Below, in pieces: positions 776 to 15,556 of a stretch of DNA of 17,089 bases (position 1 is the first letter of the stretch; each line of letters begins with the position of its first letter). Made by a program: the position numbers and the translations under genes. The stretch is from a bacterium (GTDB lineage Bacteria; SZUA-182; DTGQ01), in assembly GCA_023512255.1 (NCBI GenBank), contig JAILZY010000075.1, forward strand, positions 1 through 17,089, written 5' to 3'. The notes under the pieces are model-generated. The model searched no databases. It was not told where the DNA came from and worked only from the letters and a program-made list of their open reading frames with translations.

Positions 776-1666
776 TTATTTTTTGAGAATCAGCTCTCGA
801 CCGCTTGAATCAAGGTGCAGCGATCCAAATTGAATCGATCTGACGCGCTGCTTTGGCTGAAGCGGAGTGAGGCAGGAAAACTGCTTTCGCTTTAGATCTA
901 CCTCCTGAATGATCCCCAGAGCCAGGGTATCGTTCATTTCATCGCAGAACCCGATGAGGAGCCCTTGCCAGTGCTGTACGGATTGAAAATCTGGCAGGTG
1001 TCCATGGAGTCCTAAGCCGGCGAAAGCAAAATTCACCACCTTGGCTTCATGAAAATATTTGCGGAACTGCTCCTGACGATATTCCCATCGCTGATCCGTG
1101 GATTTTGGCTGAACAGCCTCTGATATCGGAAATCGTCGAAGGGATAGCGATCGTCGGTAAGAGAAATTCCTGAGCAGTACCTCTAATTCCCTACCCTTCT
1201 GTAGAGCGATAAGATGGGTAGGATTCACCAGGTCGATTTTTTGGAATTTAAATTCAAGGCCGATCCTGCCTGTAACAAAGCCACAAGTGTCCAGGACGAT
1301 CCCGTCTACTCTCTGCCGGATAGCCTTATCCATCATTGTCCGCACTGCCACTAGGGTTTGCAAAAGATGCCCGATTGGTGAAGTTGAACCAACAAAGCGG
1401 AGAAAGAGAGGGCTTTCCTCCCCTTCTGTGGGCGAGACAATGCGCATCCCTACGGTGGCAGGAGGGCCGAGAATAGATTGTCCAAGATCTGAGTCGATCC
1501 AAGCCACTCGACGTCCTAGATGACATATTTGAGAAACCAGGTAGCGACACAGGGTGGATTTTCCGGTATCATTTTCTCCCAGGGTGAAGATAATAAATCG
1601 ACGATGATACTCTTCAATATCCTTAACCAGTCTCACCCATTCTTCAGGTATTTTATCGATAGTCAT
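776..1666 (-). CDS. Clp1/GRC3-like polynucleotide 5'-hydroxyl kinase
   Basis: A 296-residue P-loop protein. Walker A is GENDTGKST (residues 30-38), the D-x-GKST form typical of the Clp1/GRC3/Nol9 kinase family. It is followed by IDSDLGQS (57-64), the family's D-x-D-x-G-Q element, then FVGSTSPIGH (91-100), also characteristic, and a Walker-B-like VDGIVLDTCGF (120-130). Family members use ATP or GTP to phosphorylate the 5'-OH end of RNA or DNA. The C-terminal part (about 200-296) resembles the beta-rich tail of Clp1-like proteins but with little detail. Such kinases are well known in eukaryotes and archaea and less familiar in bacteria; the substrate here is unknown. The start is supported by GAGGTAAGG four bases upstream of the ATG. 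The gene is divergent from the NHL gene, and a possible promoter lies at 1712-1740. The kinase family is clear; the specific RNA target is inference. Confidence 0.82.
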   Translation of the reverse strand: MTIDKIPEEWVRLVKDIEEYHRRFIIFTLGENDTGKSTLCRYLVSQICHLGRRVAWIDSDLGQSILGPPATVGMRIVSPTEGEESPLFLRFVGSTSPIGHLLQTLVAVRTMMDKAIRQRVDGIVLDTCGFVTGRIGLEFKFQKIDLVNPTHLIALQKGRELEVLLRNFSYRRSLSLRRFPISEAVQPKSTDQRWEYRQEQFRKYFHEAKVVNFAFAGLGLHGHLPDFQSVQHWQGLLIGFCDEMNDTLALGIIQEVDLKRKQFSCLTPLQPKQRVRSIQFGSLHLDSSGRELILKK

Positions 1667-1740: not shown

Positions 1741-1841
1741 TAATAAAACCGCCAGATGCCATATTGTAGGGATAGTTTCCGATTAAGAATAAAAGTATTA
1801 TAGAGGAGATGCTTTCTCAGGAAAAGGGGGCAGCGTGTGGT

Positions 1842-3761
1842 ATGGGCAGAGCTGACAGAGCGAAAATTAAAGCTCCGGATTTCCCATCGGGACTTGTCTG
1901 GTATAATACCCGCCACCCCATCTCATTGAAGGAGCTGAGGGGGAAAGTAGTACTTTTGGATTTTTGGTCCTATTGTTGCATTAACTGTCTTCATGGTATT
2001 TCTGATCTAGGGCGGCTTGAGGAAAAATATCCAAATGAGATAGTGGTCATCGGAGTCCATTCGGCCAAATTTAATGCTGAACAAAAGGAAGAAAATATTA
2101 GGCGAGCTATCATGCGACATGGAATCCGGTATCCAGTGGTAAATGACAAGGATCTGCTCATCTGGCATTTGTACGATATTCGTGCCTGGCCAAGCTTTGC
2201 CCTTATTGACCCGGATGGCAACCTGATAGGTATTAGCGCTGGTGAGGGAATCTATGAGTCATTCAGCACCATTATCGACAGTATCATTCAGGAATATGAC
2301 CGAGAAGGGAAAATTAATCGTTCTCCAATCCAATTTGAGCCGGAAACATTACCTGTAATTGACTCGTTCCTCTCTTTTCCAGGTAAGGTTTTGGCTGTTG
2401 AGAGTTCAAACCATCTTTTTATCGCTGATACCAATCATCATCGGATTATCATGGCCACTCTGGATGAGTTAGCTGTGCAGATGATTATCGGCCAGGGAGA
2501 GGCGGGGTTTCGGGATGGAAATTTCATGATCGCCCAATTCAAACACCCACAAGGTATGGCCGCTCACGGGGATTTTCTCTATGTGGCGGATACGGAAAAT
2601 CACGCTATTCGACAGGTTGATCTGAAAAATCGCCAGGTAATAACCCTGGCTGGAAACGGCCGTCAGGCTCGGCGGATTAATTCCGGCTATGGGCTCACCA
2701 TTCCGTTGAACTCGCCGTGGGATCTGGTGTTTCACCAGGGCTACCTGTATATTGCCATGGCTGGATTTCACCAGATCTGGCAGCTTAGGCTCAAGGACGG
2801 TTTCATCGAACCCTACGCGGGCAGCGGCCGGGAGGGCCTCATTGATGGTAAGCTCAAAGGAGCTGCCCTAGCTCAACCAAGCGGCATAACCACTGATGGG
2901 GAAAAGCTCTACTTTGCTGATAGTGAAAGCAGCTCCATACGATCAGCAGACCTTCCACCTCAGGACGCTGTTTCAACTATCGTCGGCAAGGACCTGTTTG
3001 TATTCGGAGACCAGGATGGTGAAGGAAATTCAGTACTGCTTCAGCATCCTATGGGAGTAGTTTTTGAGCATGGATATCTCTATGTAGCTGATACTTATAA
3101 TAATAAAATCAAACGGATCAATATTAAAAAGAGGACCTGTGAGACCCTCTTTGGTGCAGGAGTAGAGGGGCTTCGAGATGGAGCCGGACGGGAGACTCTA
3201 TTTAATGAACCCGAAGGCTTGAGTATCGCCAAGGGCCAATTGTATATTGCTGATACAAATAATCATGTTATCCGAAAAGCTGATCTTGAAACCAATACGG
3301 TAAAAACCATCTCCTTTACCGGACTTGATGCTTACCAGCAGGCTGCCGAGGTCTTGAAGGAGGAATTTGCCGGAAAGGTCATCCGCTACGATCCCCAAAA
3401 AATTCAGCCCGGCGAAGGAAAAATCTCGATCGATCTGGTTATCCCCAAAGGGTATCAGTTGACTCCTCACGCCCCTCATACTATCTCTTGGCAGGCGGAT
3501 AATGATCGGCTTAAGTTTCCAATCTCTCCTACCTATCTTCAATTTGAGAGCAGTAGCCTTCCCATCATCATTCCTTTTCAGGCCAGTGAGGGCAAGTCGC
3601 ATCTTTTGGTTGATATGCTGGTTTACTGTTGCGGAAGCCAGGCAGAGGCTTATTCTCAGTGTTTTCTAGCCCAGGTGCGGCTAGATATTCCGGTGGTTAT
3701 TTCCAAAGAAGCCCCAGGCGCTGAAATCAGAGTAAGCTATCAGATAGCCGAGCAGCCTTAA
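1842..3761 (+). CDS. NHLRC2-like thioredoxin-fold/NHL-repeat protein
   Basis: From the first possible ATG (1809) the protein has 650 residues; from 1842 it has 639. Using the 1809 numbering, residues about 20-165 form a TlpA-like thioredoxin domain with the redox motif WSYCCINC (53-60), the CCINC signature of the NHLRC2 family. Then come at least five NHL beta-propeller blades with recurring LYVADTxNHxIRxxD motifs (about 195-500), and a beta-rich C-terminal domain (about 540-650). No signal peptide is evident, so a cytoplasmic location is likely. GAGGAG touches the ATG at 1809, too close to work well, while a GGGGG tract lies 11-15 bases before 1842, so I prefer 1842 without certainty. The stop codon lies inside one arm of a 21-nt inverted repeat. 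The biochemical function of bacterial homologues is not established; a redox or scaffold role is inference. Confidence 0.88.
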   Translation: MGRADRAKIKAPDFPSGLVWYNTRHPISLKELRGKVVLLDFWSYCCINCLHGISDLGRLEEKYPNEIVVIGVHSAKFNAEQKEENIRRAIMRHGIRYPVVNDKDLLIWHLYDIRAWPSFALIDPDGNLIGISAGEGIYESFSTIIDSIIQEYDREGKINRSPIQFEPETLPVIDSFLSFPGKVLAVESSNHLFIADTNHHRIIMATLDELAVQMIIGQGEAGFRDGNFMIAQFKHPQGMAAHGDFLYVADTENHAIRQVDLKNRQVITLAGNGRQARRINSGYGLTIPLNSPWDLVFHQGYLYIAMAGFHQIWQLRLKDGFIEPYAGSGREGLIDGKLKGAALAQPSGITTDGEKLYFADSESSSIRSADLPPQDAVSTIVGKDLFVFGDQDGEGNSVLLQHPMGVVFEHGYLYVADTYNNKIKRINIKKRTCETLFGAGVEGLRDGAGRETLFNEPEGLSIAKGQLYIADTNNHVIRKADLETNTVKTISFTGLDAYQQAAEVLKEEFAGKVIRYDPQKIQPGEGKISIDLVIPKGYQLTPHAPHTISWQADNDRLKFPISPTYLQFESSSLPIIIPFQASEGKSHLLVDMLVYCCGSQAEAYSQCFLAQVRLDIPVVISKEAPGAEIRVSYQIAEQP

Positions 3762-4051: not shown

Positions 4052-4246
4052 CCGCCGAAGCTTTCGCACTTTATTAGCGAAAAGATCACTTAGCAAAAGA
4101 ACCACTTAAGCGAAAAGACCACTAAACCTTAAATCATAGCGCGCAAGATTTGGTTGACTTGCCGGTATATATAGTAGTAAGTAGTAGCCTATTCCAATGA
4201 ACCTGATTGATTAATATATACAATGCGCGTTCAGAGCAGGGGCATA

Positions 4247-4861
4247 ATGCATAATAATAACATTACTGACCGGCAATCCCAAGGGTTGAAAGAGATTGCT
4301 GATGAAGAGCTGATGGTCGGCATTCGGCAGGGCAATAGCCAGGATTTTGAAAAACTGGTTGGAAGGTATGCTTCAGCGCTTTATCGGTTTGTCTACCGTA
4401 TCCTCAAGGATGAGGGAGAAGCTCAGGATATTGTTCAGGAGACTTTCTTGCGGGTGTATAGGAACGCCAGCCAGTACAATCCACAATACCCTTTACGGGT
4501 CTGGATCTTTTCCATTGCCAGCCATCTGGCCATGAATATCTTGAGCTCAGCCAGAAGGCGGCGGATACTCTTTTTTTGGAGCAGACCGTCCTCACCTGAG
4601 CAGGATAAGGATGTCCCCCAGGAAGAAGAAATTATGGATCCGGCGACAAATCCAGAAGAGGAATTCTCTCGGCAGCAAATATCACAAAGAGTTCGGCAAG
4701 CGATCGATAATCTCAGCCCCAGACAGAGGATAGCCCTTACCCTGAGCAAGTTGGAGGGGCTGAGCTATAAAGAAATCGCCAAGATCATGAATATCAATAT
4801 TTCGGCTGTGGAGTCATTGATTTTTCGAGCCAAACGGAAAATTCAGCGTGAGATCGGCTGA
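4247..4861 (+). CDS. ECF-family RNA polymerase sigma factor (RpoE-like)
   Basis: About 204 residues with the standard two-domain layout. Sigma region 2 runs from DEELMVGIRQGNSQDFEKLV through DIVQETFLRVYRNA, with YPLRVWIFSIASHLAMNIL for promoter melting and -10 contact. After an acidic linker, region 4 has LSPRQRIALTLSKLEGLSYKEIAKIMNI and a helix-turn-helix ending SAVESLIFRAKRKI. An earlier in-frame ATG at 4223 has no ribosome binding site; the ATG at 4247 has AGGGG four bases ahead, so I prefer it. The zinc-finger anti-sigma gene and two Spy/CnrX-like genes follow on the same strand, so the regulon probably answers envelope or metal stress. Such sigma factors usually activate their own operon, but I could not identify a matching promoter motif by eye. 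Confidence 0.93.
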   Translation: MHNNNITDRQSQGLKEIADEELMVGIRQGNSQDFEKLVGRYASALYRFVYRILKDEGEAQDIVQETFLRVYRNASQYNPQYPLRVWIFSIASHLAMNILSSARRRRILFFWSRPSSPEQDKDVPQEEEIMDPATNPEEEFSRQQISQRVRQAIDNLSPRQRIALTLSKLEGLSYKEIAKIMNINISAVESLIFRAKRKIQREIG

Positions 4862-4892
4862 AGGAAAATGAATAACCCGAAAAAAAAAATCA

Positions 4893-4923
4893 CCGATCGC
4901 CAAGCGATCGGGCGCAAGTTTTT
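4893..4923 (+). terminator. Hairpin between sigma and anti-sigma genes (weak terminator or attenuator)
   Basis: CCGATCGC (4893-4900) and GCGATCGG (4904-4911) form a perfect 8-bp stem with a CAA loop. Eight bases later comes TTTTT (4919-4923). The gap before the T-run makes it weaker than a classical terminator. It lies in the 103-base space between two co-directional, functionally linked genes, so partial attenuation or transcript stabilisation is more likely than full termination. Confidence 0.5.
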
Positions 4924-4964
4924 ACTTCATGCCTGGTATTAAAAGATAGTGAGGGTAGCAAAAG

Positions 4965-5474
4965 ATGTGGTGGGTAAGAAAACATGTAAAAGAGAGAAAA
5001 ATTTCAGCCTTGATCGATGGTGAGCTGTCGCCGAAAGAGCAAGAGGCCATTTTTCGACATATTGACCAGTGCCAAAGGTGCAAGGATAAGCTCCAGCAGT
5101 GGCGGCAGGTGGATTATTGCCTCGTGCGGCACTATGAGCGTCCGGTTCCAGTTATGGCTCCTGCGCTACTTGAGCAAAAGATCATGGCCCAGATACGGCG
5201 ACATCAGGAGACAAAAGAGGCCGCAGACTGTGCTCTATCAAGCTCCTTATCTCGATCTTGGCGTCCGTATTGCCTTAGCTTGCAGGTTGCAGCCGCCACT
5301 TGCCTGGTAACCTTGGGGATTGTTCTGGGAACCCTCATGGGAGCAAAACTTACGCTCTGCCTGGTCAGGAAGCAGGAGCAGATTGACCTGTTGGCGGTCC
5401 TATCGCCGGAGGAGATATATTCTACTTCTTTTGCCGAAATGAGCCTTGAGATGATCACTGAGGGAGAATGGTGA
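4965..5474 (+). CDS. Zinc-finger anti-sigma factor, single transmembrane segment
   Basis: 169 residues. The N-terminal cytoplasmic part carries ISALIDGELSPKE followed by H32-x3-C36-x2-C39 (HIDQCQRC), the zf-HC2/ZAS signature of anti-sigma factors that bind and hold ECF sigma factors. A hydrophobic segment at about 105-130 (AAATCLVTLGIVLGTLMGA) should anchor it in the inner membrane, leaving about 40 residues outside. This is the expected architecture for passing an envelope signal to the sigma factor encoded just upstream. AGGG at 4952-4955 lies nine bases before the ATG. The gene overlaps the next one at its stop codon, indicating translational coupling. The family call is strong; the signal is not known. 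Confidence 0.88.
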   Translation: MWWVRKHVKERKISALIDGELSPKEQEAIFRHIDQCQRCKDKLQQWRQVDYCLVRHYERPVPVMAPALLEQKIMAQIRRHQETKEAADCALSSSLSRSWRPYCLSLQVAAATCLVTLGIVLGTLMGAKLTLCLVRKQEQIDLLAVLSPEEIYSTSFAEMSLEMITEGEW

Positions 5475-5983
5475 TGAAAAAGTATGCTCTTTATCTTGCA
5501 CTAATTTTTTCCGTAGCCATAAACGTGGCTGTAGCCGCAACCGTTGCCTACCATTTTTGGCGACTTAGCCGGGCTGAAAATTGGAGACCCTCCTGTGATC
5601 AAAAGCCGCTTGGAAGGTTTATGCGGGAAAATCTTCAACTTGAAGCAGAAGATATCGTCCGCTTTCAATCGCTTTTGGCCCAGGATAGAGAAGAGCTTAT
5701 TGCTCTGAGAAAGCAGGTCCGAGAGCAGCAGCAGGCTCTTTTTGATCTTTTGGATAAGCCCAATATCAACCAGACTCAGATTGATCAACAGATCGAAAAG
5801 ATCGCTACCCTTCAGGCTAAAATGCAAAAGATAGTTATCAATCGGATTATTAACCTCAAATCCACTCTTCCGGAAGAGAAGCAGCAGAGGTTACTGAGAG
5901 CCCTTCGTCAGCGATTGGAGGGCGGTTCATTTGGGCCAGGGGCTTTTGGCCCGGGATTTGGGAAAAAGATGAGGAGGTGGTGA
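5474..5983 (+). CDS. Membrane-anchored Metal_resist/CnrX-like periplasmic sensor protein
   Basis: About 169 residues. An N-terminal hydrophobic segment (YALYLALIFSVAINVAVAAT) acts as signal anchor. The remainder is a long, charged, four-helix-type coiled domain (about 45-155; FMRENLQLEAEDIVRFQSLL, then helices rich in Q, E, K and R) typical of the Metal_resist/Spy/CpxP superfamily. The end is Gly/Phe/Pro rich. In the known CnrYXH system a protein of this kind sits with a sigma and an anti-sigma factor and senses metal in the periplasm, and the gene order here supports a similar job. I see no His-rich metal site. AGGGAG at 5461-5466 fits the ATG at 5474, which overlaps the anti-sigma stop as TGATG; an ATG at 5468 is also in frame but too close to that site. 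Confidence 0.75.
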   Translation: MKKYALYLALIFSVAINVAVAATVAYHFWRLSRAENWRPSCDQKPLGRFMRENLQLEAEDIVRFQSLLAQDREELIALRKQVREQQQALFDLLDKPNINQTQIDQQIEKIATLQAKMQKIVINRIINLKSTLPEEKQQRLLRALRQRLEGGSFGPGAFGPGFGKKMRRW

Positions 5984-6132
5984 TAGGTCTATCGCGATTT
6001 TCTGAATATAACTCAAGTTCTGAGAATAGGGTCATGAGAATAAAGTTATGAGTTAAGTAACATGATCAAGAGAGAACAGATCATTTAAGACATCATTGAA
6101 GACATTATTAATTGAAAGTGAAAGGGAGAAAA

Positions 6133-6723
6133 ATGAACAAGAAATTTTTTATCAGCGATCTTTTGGTTGTTTTTACTCTGATAGTCATTTTGGTTCCTCT
6201 GGCGGCCACAACCTCAGCTTATGCTTTTTGGGGAGGAGGGCGAAGCAAGTGTAAAGCAGCCTCGATGTCCGGCCAGCAAGGACTAGGACCAGGAGGTGAT
6301 GGATGGGGCAGTCGTCTCGGGCGCTATCTTGATCTATCCACTAAACAGCAGCAACAGATGCATGATCTTAGGTTTGCATTCCAGAAAAAAACTATCGATC
6401 TGCGGGATCAGATCGGTAAAAAGAGACTTGAGCAAAAAGCTCTTTTAGAGGCAGAGACCGTAGATTGGAAAAAAGTTGATGCCTTGACCGATGAGATCGC
6501 CAAACTCAGGGCAAGTATTGAAAAGGAAAGAATGCGACAGAGAGTGGAAATGAGAAAGATACTTACTCCCGAGCAGCTGAAAAAGCTTGAGAGCCTGCCT
6601 TATTGGCAGGGGGGAGGACACTGGGGCTGGGAAGAAGATGATTTTCCAGCCCAAGGATGGCCGGGATGCGGCCTCGGAAATGGGCCTGCTGGCCAGGGGC
6701 CAGGTCGCGGCCGCGGATTATAA
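6133..6723 (+). CDS. Secreted Spy/ZraP/CpxP-like periplasmic protein
   Basis: About 196 residues. It has a clear Sec signal peptide (MNKKFFISDLL..., hydrophobic core, cleavage expected after AYA near residue 32). The mature part has LDLSTKQQQQ and LTPEQLKKLE, two LTxxQ-type motifs that define the Spy/CpxP/ZraP superfamily, joined by a long amphipathic helical stretch, then a Gly/Trp/Pro-rich tail. Relatives act as periplasmic chaperones or zinc-binding repressors of stress signalling. A spacer of about 150 bases separates it from the upstream sensor gene, with no terminator seen, so it may belong to the same operon or have its own sigma-dependent promoter. The ATG at 6133 has AGGGAG (6123-6128) at good distance; a TTG further upstream at 6112 has no such site. 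Confidence 0.8.
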   Translation: MNKKFFISDLLVVFTLIVILVPLAATTSAYAFWGGGRSKCKAASMSGQQGLGPGGDGWGSRLGRYLDLSTKQQQQMHDLRFAFQKKTIDLRDQIGKKRLEQKALLEAETVDWKKVDALTDEIAKLRASIEKERMRQRVEMRKILTPEQLKKLESLPYWQGGGHWGWEEDDFPAQGWPGCGLGNGPAGQGPGRGRGL

Positions 6724-9334: not shown

Positions 9335-12031
9335 TCAATCTCCCGTGGCAAGCCTTTCAATTTTCACCGCACAGACCTTCAATTCCGGAATCTTGGCTAC
9401 AGGATCAATTACTGGATTGGTTAAGGCGTTTGCCGGAGACTCATGAAAATGGAAGGGAAGAAACACTACCCCTCGCGGCATCCGATCACTGATCAGGGCT
9501 CGCACCTTAATTTCCCCTCTCCTAGATTTTACCACAACCTCCTCATGAGAGGCCACATTAATTGCCTGGGCATCTTCAGCGCTGATTTCCAGATAGCCTT
9601 CTGGATAAATTTCTTGCAATGGAGCTACCCGTCTGGACATCGAGCCTGTATGGTAGTGAAACAGTTTTCTTCCCGTAGTCAGGGTAAAGGGATATTCCGC
9701 GTCGGCTATCTCTGCCGGAGGCGAGTATTCTACCGGCGTAAATTTGCCCAATCCCCTGGCAAAGCGTCGATGGTGCAGGTATTTTGTGCCCGGATGCTGG
9801 GTGCTGGGGCAAGGCCACTGAAGCCCTCCCTCCTGTTCTATTCTCTGATAGGTCATTCCTCCGTAGCTTGGCGTCAGGTCAGCGATTTCCTGAAAGATTT
9901 CCTCAGCACACCGATAGCGCATAGGATACCCCATTAGGGTAGCTAGCTCACAGATAATTTTCCAATCCTCCATACCCTCGCCAACTGTCTGGATCGCCTT
10001 ATTCATCTTTTGGACCCTTCGTTCGGTGTTGGTAACCGTGCCCTCTTTTTCAGCAAAACTTACTGCCGGCAAAACAACATCCGCCATCTGGGCGGTTTCG
10101 GTTAAAAATATATCCTGAACCACAAGAAAGTCGAGAGAGCGAAGAGCCTTCTCTACCTTGTGAATATCTGGATCACTTAGCATCGGGTTTTCACCCATGA
10201 TATAGAGCCCCTTGATTTCTCCGGCTAAGGCTCCCTGGAATATCTCAGTAACTGTCAAGCCGGGCTTATTTGAGAGCGACACTCCCCACTTCTCCTCGAA
10301 TCTGCTCAAGATATGCGGATCAGCGATACTCTGATAACCCGGCAGGACATTGGGCAGGCATCCCATATCGCAGGCCCCCTGGACATTATTTTGTCCCCTA
10401 AGTGGGTTGACCCCGCTATTTTCCTTGCCTACATTTCCAGTCAGCATAGCCAGATTGGCGATGGCCAAAACCTGATCTGTGCCTGACCTGTGCTGAGTTA
10501 CTCCCATAGCGTAGAGAATTGAGGCCGCTTCCGCCTGAGCATAGATCCGGGCTGCCTCTTGGATCAAAGAGGCAGGAACGCCGGTTATCTGTGATACCAG
10601 CTCAAGATCGTAGCGGTCAACCACCTTCTTGAACTCTTCATATCCTTCGGTCCGCTCGGCGATAAATCGCTGATCAGCAAGCCCCTCGTCGATGATCACC
10701 TTCATCATCCCATTGAGCAGGGCAATATTTGTCCCTGGCCGAAGCTGTAGCCAGATATCAGCTATCTTAGTCAGGGCAATAGGTCTTGGATCAGCTACAA
10801 TCAGTTTGCTTCCATTCTTTCTGACCGCCTTTTTTACCTGAAGGGCAATGATTGGATGGGCTTCGGTTGTGTTAGAGCCGATAACCAGAATCGCCTTGGC
10901 CTGGCTGATTTCGGCGATAGAGTTGGTCATAGCTCCACTGCCAAACGATGTGGCTAGACCAGCCACTGTAGAGGCGTGTCAGAGCCGGGCGCAGTGGTCG
11001 ACATTATTAGTGCCTAAAACCGCCCTAACGAATTTTTGGAAGAGGTAATTTTCCTCATTTGTGCACTTGGCTGAGCTTAAGCCCGCTAGGGTATTGTTCC
11101 CATGCCGGCTTTTGATCTCCTGAAATTTTGTGGCTACTAGCCTCAAGGCTTCATACCATTCGGCCCGCACAAGCTGGCCACCCTTTCTGATAAGAGGAAA
11201 CTGCAAGCGATCAGGATGATGAACAAATTCATAGCCGAACCTGCCCTTACTGCACAGGTAGCCTTCGTTTGGTGAGCTGCTGTCCGAATGGACACCGACA
11301 ATTTCGTTATCTTTAATATGTAGGGTCAGATTGCAGCCGCATCCACAGTAAGGACAGATGGTTTTAACCCATCTGGTCTGCCATTTTCTCCCCTTTCGGC
11401 GTGCAGGCTTGCTGGTCAGCGCCCCTACAGGGCAGGAGGCGATGCACTGGCCGCAAAACTCACAGTTTAATTTTCGGTTAAAGGGAGTGCCGATTCGGGT
11501 CTGAAATCCTCTGCCGATAAAGCCAATGGCTGACACCCCCTGCACCTCGTCGCAGACCCGGACACATCGGCCACAGAGGATACATTTGCTGTTATCCCGC
11601 TCGATAAAAGGGTTAGAATCATCAATCAAGGCCGCCCGGCGCTCGCCTTTCAGCCGGCTGTTTTTTAATCCGTACTGATAGGCCAGGTCCTGAAGCAGGC
11701 AATCACCCGCCTTTTCACAAAACATGCAATCTGGCTCATGGTCAGAGAGGAGTAGCTCGACGATTAGGCGTCGATACTGATCAATCTTTTCCGAGTCGGT
11801 TCTGATTTTCATCCCGGCAGCCACAGGGGTGGAGCAGGCAGGAACAAGCTTGGGAAGCCCGGCTACCTCTACTAGACAGAGGCGACAGGCCCCGAAAGGG
11901 CTTAAGTTTTGACAATCACATAGGGTAGGAATAAAGACCTTGTTCTCTCTGGCCACTTCCAGGATGGTCTGTGAAGGGGCAGAAGCCACTTCTTTTCCGT
12001 TTATGGATAGGTATATTTTCTTCTCTTCCAT
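9335..12031 (-). CDS. fdhA: Selenocysteine-containing NAD-linked formate dehydrogenase catalytic subunit
   Basis: A single 898-residue protein read through an in-frame UGA (residue 351, selenocysteine). Domains in order: NuoG-like [2Fe-2S] (C38, C49, C52, C66); His-Cys3 cluster (H98, C102, C105, C111); two ferredoxin [4Fe-4S] clusters (C150/153/156/160 and C190/193/196/200); the molybdopterin-enzyme [4Fe-4S] motif CPYCGCGC (C226, C229, C233, C260); the active site CARL-Sec-HASTVAGLA; the bis-MGD Mo/W-pterin domains; and the dinucleotide-binding C-terminal domain (YPFTLTTGRKLFHYHTG). It should interconvert formate and CO2 and pass electrons through its Fe-S chain to the NuoE/NuoF-like partners encoded just upstream. 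No twin-arginine signal is present, so it is cytoplasmic. Its extended N-terminus matches the FdsA/FdhF2 class. AAGGAA lies seven bases before the ATG. An annotation that treats UGA as stop would give two false genes, 10979-12031 and 9335-10966. Confidence 0.95.
10950..10966 (-). promoter_or_regulatory. Bacterial SECIS hairpin of fdhA
   Basis: On the coding strand, GTGGCT - GGTCT - AGCCAC forms a perfect 6-bp stem with a five-base loop, starting 12 bases after the UGA. The loop GGUCU is the same as in the E. coli fdhF/fdnG SECIS elements that recruit SelB. Outside it, CACGCC just after the UGA can pair with GGCAGTG (one bulge) as a lower stem. It requires SelA, SelB, SelC and SelD from elsewhere in the genome. 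Confidence 0.9.
10979..10981 (-). other. UGA codon read as selenocysteine (residue 351 of FdhA)
   Basis: The UGA falls exactly where formate dehydrogenases have Sec or Cys: the context is NNVDHCARL-U-HASTVAGLA, with the invariant His next to it. The reading frame and conserved FdhA sequence continue without shift on both sides. Confidence 0.95.
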
Positions 12032-12068: not shown

Positions 12069-13916
12069 TCATATTATCGCCTGAGCAGGGCAGTTTTCAA
12101 TGCAGGTTTTGCATTTAATGCAGAGGCTCTTATTGATGCTAGCCGCGGTTTTCGGCATCCAGGATACCGCACCTGCCGGACACACCTTTTTACACAGGCC
12201 GCACCTTTTGCAAAGGTCCACATCTACTTCAAACTTGATCAGGGCAATACAACAATGAGCCGGACACCTCTTTTCCAGAATATGCGCCCGATATTCATCG
12301 GCAAAATACCGCAAGGTGCTCAATACCGGATTGGGAGCTGTCTGACCAAGCCCACACAAGGCCGTAGCTTTTATCCCCTCGGCTAGCTCTTGTAACAGTT
12401 CCAAATCAGCTTCTTCCCCCTTCCCTTCGGTAATTCTGGTAACGATCTCAAGCATCCTTTTAGTCCCTATCCGGCAGGGTATGCATTTGCCGCACGATTC
12501 ATTTTGAATAAATTCCAAAAAGAAGCGGGCTACATCAACCATACAATTAGCCGCATCCATAACTATCATGCCGCCTGATCCCATGATGGCTCCAAGACTG
12601 ATCAGGGAATCATAGTCTATAGGAACATCAAGGTGCTCTTCAGGGATGCAGCCACCTGATGGCCCTCCCAGTTGAACAGCTTTAAACTTTCTCCCCTTGG
12701 GAGGCCCTCCGCCAATATCGAAAATGATCTCCCGCAGGGTAATGCCCATCGGCACCTCCACTAATCCGGTATTATTAACCTTGCCAGCTAGAGCGAATAT
12801 CTTGGTCCCTTTGCTCTTTTCGGTGCCAATTTCTGAATACCACTGAGAACCTTTGGTAATAATGAAGGGGACATTGGCAAAGGTTTCAACATTGTTAATA
12901 TTTGAGGGCTTTCCCCACAACCCTTTAACCGCAGGAAAGGGTGGCCTGGGTCGTGGCATGCCCCTCCTCCCCTCAATGGAAGCCATAAGAGCGGTTTCCT
13001 CACCGCAGACAAAAGCTCCGGCTCCCTCTTTTATCATGACATCAAAGGAAAAGTCTGTCCCTAAGATATTCTGTCCTAAAATTCCAAGCTCTTGCCCCTG
13101 GGCTATAGCTATCTTGAGGTTAGTTATAGCCAGGGGATATTCAGCTCTGACATAAATGTATCCGCGGTGTGCTCCTATGGCATAGCCAGCTATCAGCATC
13201 CCTTCGAGCACCAGGTGAGGATTGCCTTCAAGTAGGCTTCGATCCATAAAAGCGCCAGGGTCTCCTTCGTCAGCATTACATATTAAATATTTGGGTTTTC
13301 CTTTGGCCTTTGAGCAGAATTCCCACTTAAGACCGGTTAAAAATCCCCCTCCGCCCCGGCCGCGAAGGCCTGATTTTTTTACTTCATCAATAACCTCCTC
13401 AGGTGTCATCTCAAAGATGGCTTTTACAAAGGCTTCATATCCTCCAAAACCGAGATAATCTTCAATTCGGGTAGGATCAATAAGGCCATTGTGGTGAAAG
13501 ATTATTCTTTTTTGCTTGGCATAAAAAGGTACATCGTGAGTATAGACATATTTTTGTTTGGTTTTTGGGTCTTGGTATAATAATTTATCTATAAGATCTC
13601 CCTTTCTAATGGTTCGCTCAATGATCTCGGGGACATCTTCTACCGATACTTGCTGATAAAAAATATCCTCAGGCAGTATGGCTACGATCGGGCCTTTTTC
13701 ACAAAAGCCGTGGCAGCCGGTCCTTTTGATCTCTACCGTGTCTGATAAGCCTGCCCTTTCTATCTCCTGCTCGAAGGCTTCGATAACCTTAACGCTGCCA
13801 GAAGCGGTGCATCCAGTCCCCTTACAAACGATAATCCTCTTTTTATTCTGATTGTAAAGCATTTCCAATTCTTTTTTTAGCTGATCGAATTCTTCTCGTG
13901 AATTAATTTTTTTCAT
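12069..13916 (-). CDS. NuoF-like diaphorase subunit with extra Fe-S domains (HydB/HndC type)
   Basis: 615 residues. The N-terminal thioredoxin-like [2Fe-2S] domain has C31, C36, C68 and C72. The core has the FMN/NADH-binding glycine stretch GLRGRGGGGFLTG (183-195) and ICNADEGDPGAF (212-223), followed by the [4Fe-4S] site ESCGKCIPCRIGT ... ALCGLG (about 475-525). The last 55 residues hold two ferredoxin clusters (CKRCGLCKKVC and CIKCKTCIENC). NuoF of complex I and FdsB lack these extra C-terminal clusters, whereas subunits of electron-bifurcating hydrogenases and FDHs have them. This subunit should carry FMN and exchange electrons with NAD(H), perhaps also with ferredoxin. It lies 29 bases downstream of the NuoE-like gene and 37 upstream of fdhA in one operon. 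GGTGAG lies two bases before the ATG. Coupled bifurcation is inference from domain layout. Confidence 0.94.
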   Translation of the reverse strand: MKKINSREEFDQLKKELEMLYNQNKKRIIVCKGTGCTASGSVKVIEAFEQEIERAGLSDTVEIKRTGCHGFCEKGPIVAILPEDIFYQQVSVEDVPEIIERTIRKGDLIDKLLYQDPKTKQKYVYTHDVPFYAKQKRIIFHHNGLIDPTRIEDYLGFGGYEAFVKAIFEMTPEEVIDEVKKSGLRGRGGGGFLTGLKWEFCSKAKGKPKYLICNADEGDPGAFMDRSLLEGNPHLVLEGMLIAGYAIGAHRGYIYVRAEYPLAITNLKIAIAQGQELGILGQNILGTDFSFDVMIKEGAGAFVCGEETALMASIEGRRGMPRPRPPFPAVKGLWGKPSNINNVETFANVPFIITKGSQWYSEIGTEKSKGTKIFALAGKVNNTGLVEVPMGITLREIIFDIGGGPPKGRKFKAVQLGGPSGGCIPEEHLDVPIDYDSLISLGAIMGSGGMIVMDAANCMVDVARFFLEFIQNESCGKCIPCRIGTKRMLEIVTRITEGKGEEADLELLQELAEGIKATALCGLGQTAPNPVLSTLRYFADEYRAHILEKRCPAHCCIALIKFEVDVDLCKRCGLCKKVCPAGAVSWMPKTAASINKSLCIKCKTCIENCPAQAII

Positions 13917-13945: not shown

Positions 13946-14437
13946 CTAAGTATGGGATTGTAGTTCATTACCTTGGGACAACCTATTTAAAATGTCGTCT
14001 ATCTTCTGAGCCGTCACTTTATCATAATAATAACCATCGATTACTATTACTGGAGCCAGGGCACATGCCCCCAAGCAGCCTACCGTTTCCAGGGTGAATA
14101 GAAGATCTTCGGTTGTATCTCCTTCTTTGATACTAAGTTTATCTTTAATAATTTCCAGGATAGTCTTACTACCCTTTACATGACAGGCTGTTCCCCGGCA
14201 GACCCTGATCAAATGCTTTCCCCGCGGGTGGGTATAAAATTGGGCATAAAAGGTAATTACTCCATAGACTTCACTGGCCGGAATGTTTAATCCTTCGGCT
14301 ATAAGATCAACCGCAGCTTCTGGAATATACGCATAATATTCCTGAATCTTTTGAAGAACAGGAATCAGCGCCCCTCTCTTTTGCTTATAGTCCTGCAACA
14401 TCATGTTTACATAGGTTAAATCTAGTTTGGCATCCAT
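13946..14437 (-). CDS. NuoE-like [2Fe-2S] subunit of NAD-linked formate dehydrogenase
   Basis: 163 residues from the preferred ATG. The helical N-terminal half (QKRGALIPVLQKIQEYYAYIPEAAVDLIAEGLNIP) is typical of the NuoE/HydC family. The thioredoxin-like half has four cysteine ligands in VCRGTACHVKG and VGCLGACALAP, binding one [2Fe-2S] cluster. It pairs with the NuoF-like subunit to carry electrons between the flavin and FdhA, matching FdsG or HytA/HydC in known complexes. It is the first gene of the operon. A GTG at 14446 is in frame, but GAGGTG at 14444-14449 sits at the right distance only for the ATG at 14437, which I take as the start. A possible promoter and operator lie upstream at 14560-14601. 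Confidence 0.93.
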   Translation of the reverse strand: MDAKLDLTYVNMMLQDYKQKRGALIPVLQKIQEYYAYIPEAAVDLIAEGLNIPASEVYGVITFYAQFYTHPRGKHLIRVCRGTACHVKGSKTILEIIKDKLSIKEGDTTEDLLFTLETVGCLGACALAPVIVIDGYYYDKVTAQKIDDILNRLSQGNELQSHT

Positions 14438-14559
14438 TTCTGGCACCTCGATTTAGGAAGCTTATTTTTGTAAAACGCCGTTATTTTTTTATTCTGGACA
14501 ATCGCTGAAAAGATTTGGCCTGGTGGCTAACCGTTTGTCTTTCAGAACAAAAACTTCGG

Positions 14560-14937: not shown

Positions 14938-14980
14938 AGAGTTTAAAAAGATTTTCTGGCCAGTTATGATAAAGGATAAT

Positions 14981-15556
14981 ATGACACTTCATCTGAGAAA
15001 CTTACAACTTTTCCTGAATGGATATGAGCTTGCCTCCCTTCGCCTTGAGTATTATAAAGTCTATGCTCTGCTCTTTGAATCTCCACCTGAAAAATTGAAA
15101 CATTTTGTCGATATTGAAGAAAATATCGAGGCACTCAATAGGGAATACCTGGATTTATTCATTCGTCCCAATATCCGATATGTCTCTCCTTGCGGCTCGG
15201 CCTACAGGAAGAGGAAGAAAGAAAATGTCCTTCACTTTTTGACAGGCCATGCCAAGGGAGAGCCAAGGCTGGATGATCATTTCCTGATCGGATTGAGCTA
15301 TATGCGGTTTTTAATCGAGAGAGAAAAGCGGCAATGGCAGCGAAAAAATTACCTAATGGCGGTAAATCTTCTCCATCAGCAGCAGGACTACCTTCTTGGC
15401 CACCTGGGTTGGCTGCCTGAGTTATGTGCAGAGATACAGCGAAAAACAAACTCTCGGTTTTATCATGATCTGGCCTCAAATCTTGAAAATTTCTTTCAGC
15501 TTGAAAAACTTCTTCTAGAGATAATTCTCCTGAGAAGAGCAGGAGTGCTGAATTGA
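14981..15556 (+). CDS. TorD/DmsD-family molybdoenzyme chaperone
   Basis: About 191 residues, all-helical. YLDLFIRP followed by VSPCGSAYR (about residues 57-77) matches the TorD/NarJ family pattern of a YxxLF motif and a PxxSxY motif. These chaperones bind the unfolded catalytic subunit of Mo/W-bis-MGD enzymes and help insert the cofactor. Here the obvious client is the FdhA encoded by the divergent operon. FdhA has no Tat signal peptide, so a pure cofactor-insertion role would fit better than export proofreading. An ATG at 14966 lacks a ribosome binding site, while AAAGGA (14970-14975) lies five bases before the ATG at 14981, so I use the latter. The gene converges on the antiporter gene with only 34 bases between them and no obvious terminator. 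The family call is good; the client is inference. Confidence 0.82.
   Translation: MTLHLRNLQLFLNGYELASLRLEYYKVYALLFESPPEKLKHFVDIEENIEALNREYLDLFIRPNIRYVSPCGSAYRKRKKENVLHFLTGHAKGEPRLDDHFLIGLSYMRFLIEREKRQWQRKNYLMAVNLLHQQQDYLLGHLGWLPELCAEIQRKTNSRFYHDLASNLENFFQLEKLLLEIILLRRAGVLN

Follow-up and report, generated by a model that had tools for sequence, protein, structure and literature searches.

Two open reading frames on the minus strand of a 17,089-nucleotide stretch of bacterial DNA (hereafter the window) make up one predicted formate dehydrogenase alpha subunit gene, fdhA, interrupted only by an in-frame UGA at codon 351. Selenocysteine (Sec) is very probably inserted at this codon, with a probability that we put at roughly 0.92. 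The preliminary description of the window had proposed both the joining of the two frames by one UGA and the reading of that UGA as a Sec codon. Readthrough translation confirmed the first proposal. The second is very probable because UGA alternates with cysteine codons at this residue, the downstream hairpin covaries and matches Rfam SECIS_3, the frame beyond the UGA is under purifying selection, and selA, selB and selD are present in the genome; the membership of the protein in the TIGR01591 family and the retention of the UGA in relatives point the same way. Three observations count against it, namely that no ordinary selC was found in the draft assembly, that the SECIS_3 match lies below the gathering score and that the fold of the hairpin region is not exceptional (z −1.11).

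One frame across the UGA

The frames at 10979..12031 (350 aa) and 9335..10966 (543 aa, counted from a GTG) share one reading frame, and translating through the TGA gives an 898-residue protein with a single internal TGA, in the context HCARL-U-HASTVAGLA. The gene starts with ATG, ahead of which AAGGAA can be read, and ends at a normal TGA. What looks like a GTG ‘start’ for the second frame belongs to the 5′ arm of the hairpin, and no Shine–Dalgarno-like sequence was read before it, so this frame is best regarded as an artefact of the way open reading frames are defined. The ORF list thus shows two frames for one protein, as the preliminary description had warned for ordinary gene calling; FdhA has been described as the most widespread bacterial selenoprotein (PMC1794560, PMC13188914), and automated annotation reportedly often truncates such genes.

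The joined protein scored 901.6 bits against TIGR01591 (formate dehydrogenase subunit alpha), passing the cut-off of 666.25. Its N-terminal part (residues 1–210) carries 2Fe-2S and 4Fe-4S modules, with the Pfam domains Fer2_4, NADH-G_4Fe-4S_3 and Fer4_Nqo3 over residues 4–206, and is fused to a molybdopterin catalytic part (220–890) with Molybdop_Fe4S4, Molybdopterin (275–697) and Molydop_binding; the UGA codon falls inside the Molybdopterin domain. A search of solved chains returned formate dehydrogenases as the best relatives. The best-scoring chain, 9t1s_L, aligns with the catalytic part only and shows opposite the UGA site an X, which denotes none of the twenty standard residues, and the NAD-linked Mo/W enzymes 6tg9_A, 7vw6_A, 7e5z_A and 9wxb_B align along residues 5–892. 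These matches support the assignment of FdhA as a probably Sec-containing formate dehydrogenase alpha subunit, a well-known kind of enzyme.

Among 93 homologous loci drawn from genome collections, the codon at residue 351 is TGA in 47, spread over many phyla, TGC or TGT (cysteine) in 45 and GAA (glutamate) in one. The alternation can be seen at short range, two loci (L023 and L024) being near-identical around the site yet carrying TGC and TGA, respectively. A congener of the window's genome (G001, 88% identity) retains the UGA, as do genomes from two further genera of this family (G002, 76%; G003, 74%). The dN/dS of fdhA against the congener is 0.054 before the UGA and 0.071 after it, figures that are rough because dS is near saturation; as judged from this comparison, the frame is under purifying selection both upstream and downstream of the UGA.

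These data bear on two further explanations. The two frames in the standard ORF list would also be explained by a pseudogene, by a sequencing error, or by a 350-aa Fe-S protein and a 543-aa catalytic fragment made separately, but this is very improbable: the UGA would divide the molybdopterin oxidoreductase domain, and the second protein would have to start at the hairpin's GTG. Pseudogene and sequencing error were rejected on the conservation of the UGA in relatives and the low dN/dS beyond it. A genome-wide reassignment of UGA, for example to tryptophan or glycine (codes 4 and 25), has nothing in its favour beyond the in-frame UGA itself and can practically be dismissed, given that window genes, fdhA included, end normally at UGA and that aligned homologs have cysteine, never tryptophan or glycine, at the site.

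The genes around fdhA suggest the electron partner of the enzyme (Table 1). The NuoF-like subunit carries a thioredoxin-like 2Fe-2S domain at its N terminus and 4Fe-4S sites at its C terminus. Among the 62 homologous loci with enough flanking sequence, a NuoF-like gene lies directly upstream of fdhA in 48 and a NuoE-like gene lies upstream within 5 kb in 52. Because of these upstream genes and the alignments with NAD-linked formate dehydrogenases, the best functional reading is an FdhABC-type complex linked to NAD(P). One polycistronic mRNA would encode the NuoE-like, NuoF-like and FdhA subunits of this complex, which is probably cytoplasmic, and Sec351 would serve as a ligand of the metal at the molybdenum or tungsten site. 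The divergent NarJ/TorD-like gene may encode a maturation factor of this formate dehydrogenase.

Table 1. Features of fdhA and its neighbours in the window
Feature	Position	Strand	Basis or remark
fdhA, predicted formate dehydrogenase alpha subunit, 898 aa, probable Sec351	9335..12031	-	ORFs, family and domain models
In-frame UGA, codon 351, catalytic Cys/Sec position	10979..10981	-	sequence, homolog alignment
Putative SECIS apical hairpin, 6-bp stem, GGUCU loop	10950..10966	-	sequence, homolog covariation
Segment matching Rfam SECIS_3 (RF01989), 43 bits (gathering score 63), E 8.4e-9	10926..10984	-	
NuoF-like FMN/NAD(H)-binding subunit	12069..13916	-	directly upstream of fdhA
NuoE-like 2Fe-2S subunit	13946..14446	-	first gene of the presumed operon
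NarJ/TorD-like molybdoenzyme chaperone	14966..15556	+	PF02613; divergent from the operon

Elsewhere in the window, a bacterial protein encoded at 776-1666 (-) matches PF16575, the CLP1 P-loop domain, whose family takes its name from an mRNA 3′-end processing factor, and the gene at 1809-3761 (+) encodes NHL repeats fused to a thioredoxin-like domain. In the interval 4223-6723 (+), an ECF sigma factor is followed by a putative anti-sigma frame and by two periplasmic proteins that are heavy-metal-sensor-like, the first of them PF13801; the row resembles a module for metal or envelope stress.

The hairpin downstream of the UGA

A hairpin with a GGUCU loop, 12 bases past the UGA, had been noted in the preliminary description, which likened the loop to that of E. 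coli FDH SECIS elements. We found it as described, with the sequence GTGGCT-GGTCT-AGCCAC and with 12 nt from the UGA to the stem and 18 nt to the loop. The published bacterial model asks for an upper stem of 4–16 bp and a loop of 3–9 nt that has a G in its first two positions and lies 16–37 nt past the UGA (PMC13188914), ranges within which the 6-bp stem, the GGUCU loop and the 18-nt distance all fall.

The cysteine homologs of the same protein provide a natural control for the hairpin. Across the six stem pairs, the share of paired cells was 97.6% in 48 UGA sequences and 61.6% in 43 cysteine sequences. All six pairs were present in 45 of the 47 UGA homologs and in 4 of the 45 cysteine homologs (Fisher p 7e-19), and the GGUCU loop in 43/47 and 10/45, respectively (p 6e-12); both p values ignore relatedness. 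The covariation score was 0.466 for the UGA homologs, a value that none of 500 shuffles reached and that compares with 0.03–0.15 in slid controls, whereas the 0.207 of the cysteine homologs was reached in 29 of 500 shuffles. At column 19, the third base of a valine codon, all of G, C, A and T are seen, with the opposite side changing to match. The core GTGGCTGGTCTAGCCAC is common to the congener and the two other genera. Since TGA occurs at the same residue in 47 of 93 homologs and stem pairing differs so clearly between the two groups, the combination of UGA and hairpin is not due to chance.

All 59 positions of SECIS_3 aligned, although the match surfaced only in a permissive search, there being no Rfam match in the window at the gathering threshold. 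The single-sequence fold gave the unexceptional z value mentioned above, and mean folding energies (−18.7 for UGA and −19.1 for cysteine homologs) did not separate the groups. The hairpin is therefore assigned as a SECIS on the comparative evidence, covariation being restricted to the UGA homologs, and not on the SECIS_3 threshold; on this basis the assignment proposed earlier is supported.

When a model built from the homolog sequences (R1) was run over the window's genome, the fdhA site, itself in the training set, came first. Next came a second formate dehydrogenase-like gene, on contig C134 (L146 and L152), whose in-frame UGA (ARL-U-HSSTVSALG) lies at a site that fits the SECIS model less well, and then a homolog with TGC. 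On C142, a third formate dehydrogenase homolog has TGC in place of UGA.

Selenocysteine machinery and a second UGA-reading set

The preliminary description had also predicted that the organism possesses Sec machinery, and this was borne out for selA, selB and selD; an ordinary selC was not found in the draft genome, the only candidate being a selC*-like tRNA. The window's genome (G000) is a draft of 3.83 Mb in 172 contigs, 96.6% complete. Contig C114 carries selA (570 bits) with an adjacent selB (397 bits; its product is SelB1), and C107 carries selD (375 bits), which itself contains an in-frame UGA (SAG-U-ASK) and lies next to an fdhD-like frame. The selD UGA (L018:1369-2448) is followed by a hairpin, TAGGTC-CGGGT-GACCTA, and the start of selD overlaps the fdhD-like frame, a label that was read from the sequence.

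The single software-called tRNA-Sec in the genome lies on C90, just upstream of a second selB (product SelB2). Although it scored over the cut-off, its reading as an ordinary selC was rejected, since alignment with the two corresponding genes of the congener placed it with the selC* type. The further tRNA-Sec matches listed with loci (L002-L008) proved, on re-identification with ARAGORN, to be Ser, Leu, Trp, Gly, Tyr and Thr tRNA genes; four weaker matches scored 30–34 bits. Neither a covariance model nor a DNA search found an ordinary selC in the 96.6% complete draft. It was found in G001, where the selC*/second-selB set is also present, and in G002, G003 and a further genome, G004. Beside the endonuclease gene that flanks selC in the congener, the window's genome has a tRNA-Leu and no selC, a result that is weak because the position of selC also differs in G002 and G003. 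We infer that an ordinary selC most likely sits in an assembly gap of the draft.

According to reviews, from which we took the definition (PMC7609411, PMC9437257), selC* tRNA-Cys genes are recognised by U73, 8/4 arms, a bulged A51a and a GCA or UCA anticodon, and in two deltaproteobacterial orders are followed by a second selB, selB* (PMC7609411). The C90 tRNA (L001:1501-1591) has U73 rather than G73, an 8-bp acceptor stem, a T-stem GG-A-GG/CCCC with a bulged A, giving 8/4 arms, and a UCA anticodon, and the second selB (L140:6602-8524) lies downstream; the congener has the same pair (L142). From these features it looks like a selC* tRNA-Cys, with cysteine as the putative charge. SelB2 shares 39% identity with SelB1 and sits on a long branch of its own; of the 386 genomes sampled, G000 and G001 were the only two in which it was seen. 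Ahead of the LLEYFD motif near the C-terminal end, it lacks the RK/RR pair and has GRIK where the other 32 of the 34 SelBs compared have [ST]RK/[ST]RR, so its recognition signal may be a different one. With a cysteine-type tRNA and a dedicated elongation factor, this rarer UGA-reading set is less ordinary than the formate dehydrogenase itself.

Only one CysRS in the genome scored over the cut-off, with no extra copy adjoining selB2, and a two-genome tblastx for conserved UGA-readthrough genes near selB2 gave only reading-frame noise among the matches listed. As judged by reading their translations, the genes downstream of selB2 (L140:9960-11984; L142:1031-5360) include YedF/TusA-like and cysteine desulfurase-like genes and, in the congener, also DUF3343-like, 2-hydroxyacyl-CoA dehydratase-like and corresponding activase-like genes; together they look like selenium/sulfur-handling genes.

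This second set raises the possibility that the selC* tRNA-Cys(UCA) and SelB2 place cysteine at codon 351, whether constantly or only under selenium shortage, and that one gene would thus give both a Sec and a Cys enzyme. The match of the tRNA and second selB to the selC*/SelB* description, the missing ordinary selC and the cysteine found at residue 351 in nearly half of the homologs (45/93) are all consistent with this, and such systems have been posited to put cysteine at the UGA codons for Sec when selenium runs short (PMC9437257). Against it, selA, selB1 and selD are all conserved and intact, which would make little sense without tRNA-Sec; the congener also has an ordinary selC; the same hairpin core occurs in G002 and G003, in each of which only one SelB was found; and the GRIK motif of SelB2 and the lack of an adjoining CysRS do not favour it. 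We consider such decoding unlikely. Also doubtful, and to a like degree, is its extension to the genus, in which selenium supply would decide whether codon 351 is filled with Sec (SelB1, tRNA-Sec) or with cysteine (SelB2, selC*), and the window's species may have lost tRNA-Sec and be left with cysteine decoding alone.

Because selA, selB1 and selD are kept and relatives with a single SelB have the same hairpin, the genomic evidence is by far best read as SelB1 inserting Sec. SelB1, the selA-linked copy, rather than SelB2 would then serve codon 351, binding the hairpin 12 nt past the UGA and delivering Sec-tRNA(Sec) before release factor 2 can act.

Comparison with known systems

Both the enzyme and the SECIS are of well-known kinds. 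The protein shares with the E. coli FDH-H family (TIGR01591 type) the catalytic Sec position in an RLUH motif, the downstream SECIS and the molybdopterin architecture, but differs in its extra N-terminal 2Fe-2S/4Fe-4S module and its NuoE/NuoF-like partner genes. In these respects it resembles the NAD-dependent Mo/W formate dehydrogenases with NuoEF-like subunits, to which it aligns over its full length including the N-terminal Fe-S module; unlike in the four solved examples given above, the catalytic residue is here encoded by UGA. The SECIS likewise resembles SECIS_3 over its full length while scoring below the gathering value. The analysis restores as one gene what an ordinary ORF call breaks into two, and the UGA and cysteine homologs of one protein provide a clean natural control that documents its SECIS.

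The tRNA and second selB resemble the selC*/SelB* system of Mukai et al. 2017, as reviewed (PMC7609411), in the tRNA features and gene order set out above. They differ from it in two ways: the tRNA has G1:C72 where the selC* of Desulfobacterales has A1:U72, and no CysRS* lies beside it. A congeneric genome pair in which an ordinary Sec set occurs alongside a selC*/SelB* set whose SECIS-reading domain is changed would make the posited switching between Sec and cysteine testable. A review lists the phyla Firmicutes, Thermodesulfobacteria, Nitrospirae and Proteobacteria; if the present lineage indeed lies outside those four, the switching could be tested beyond them.
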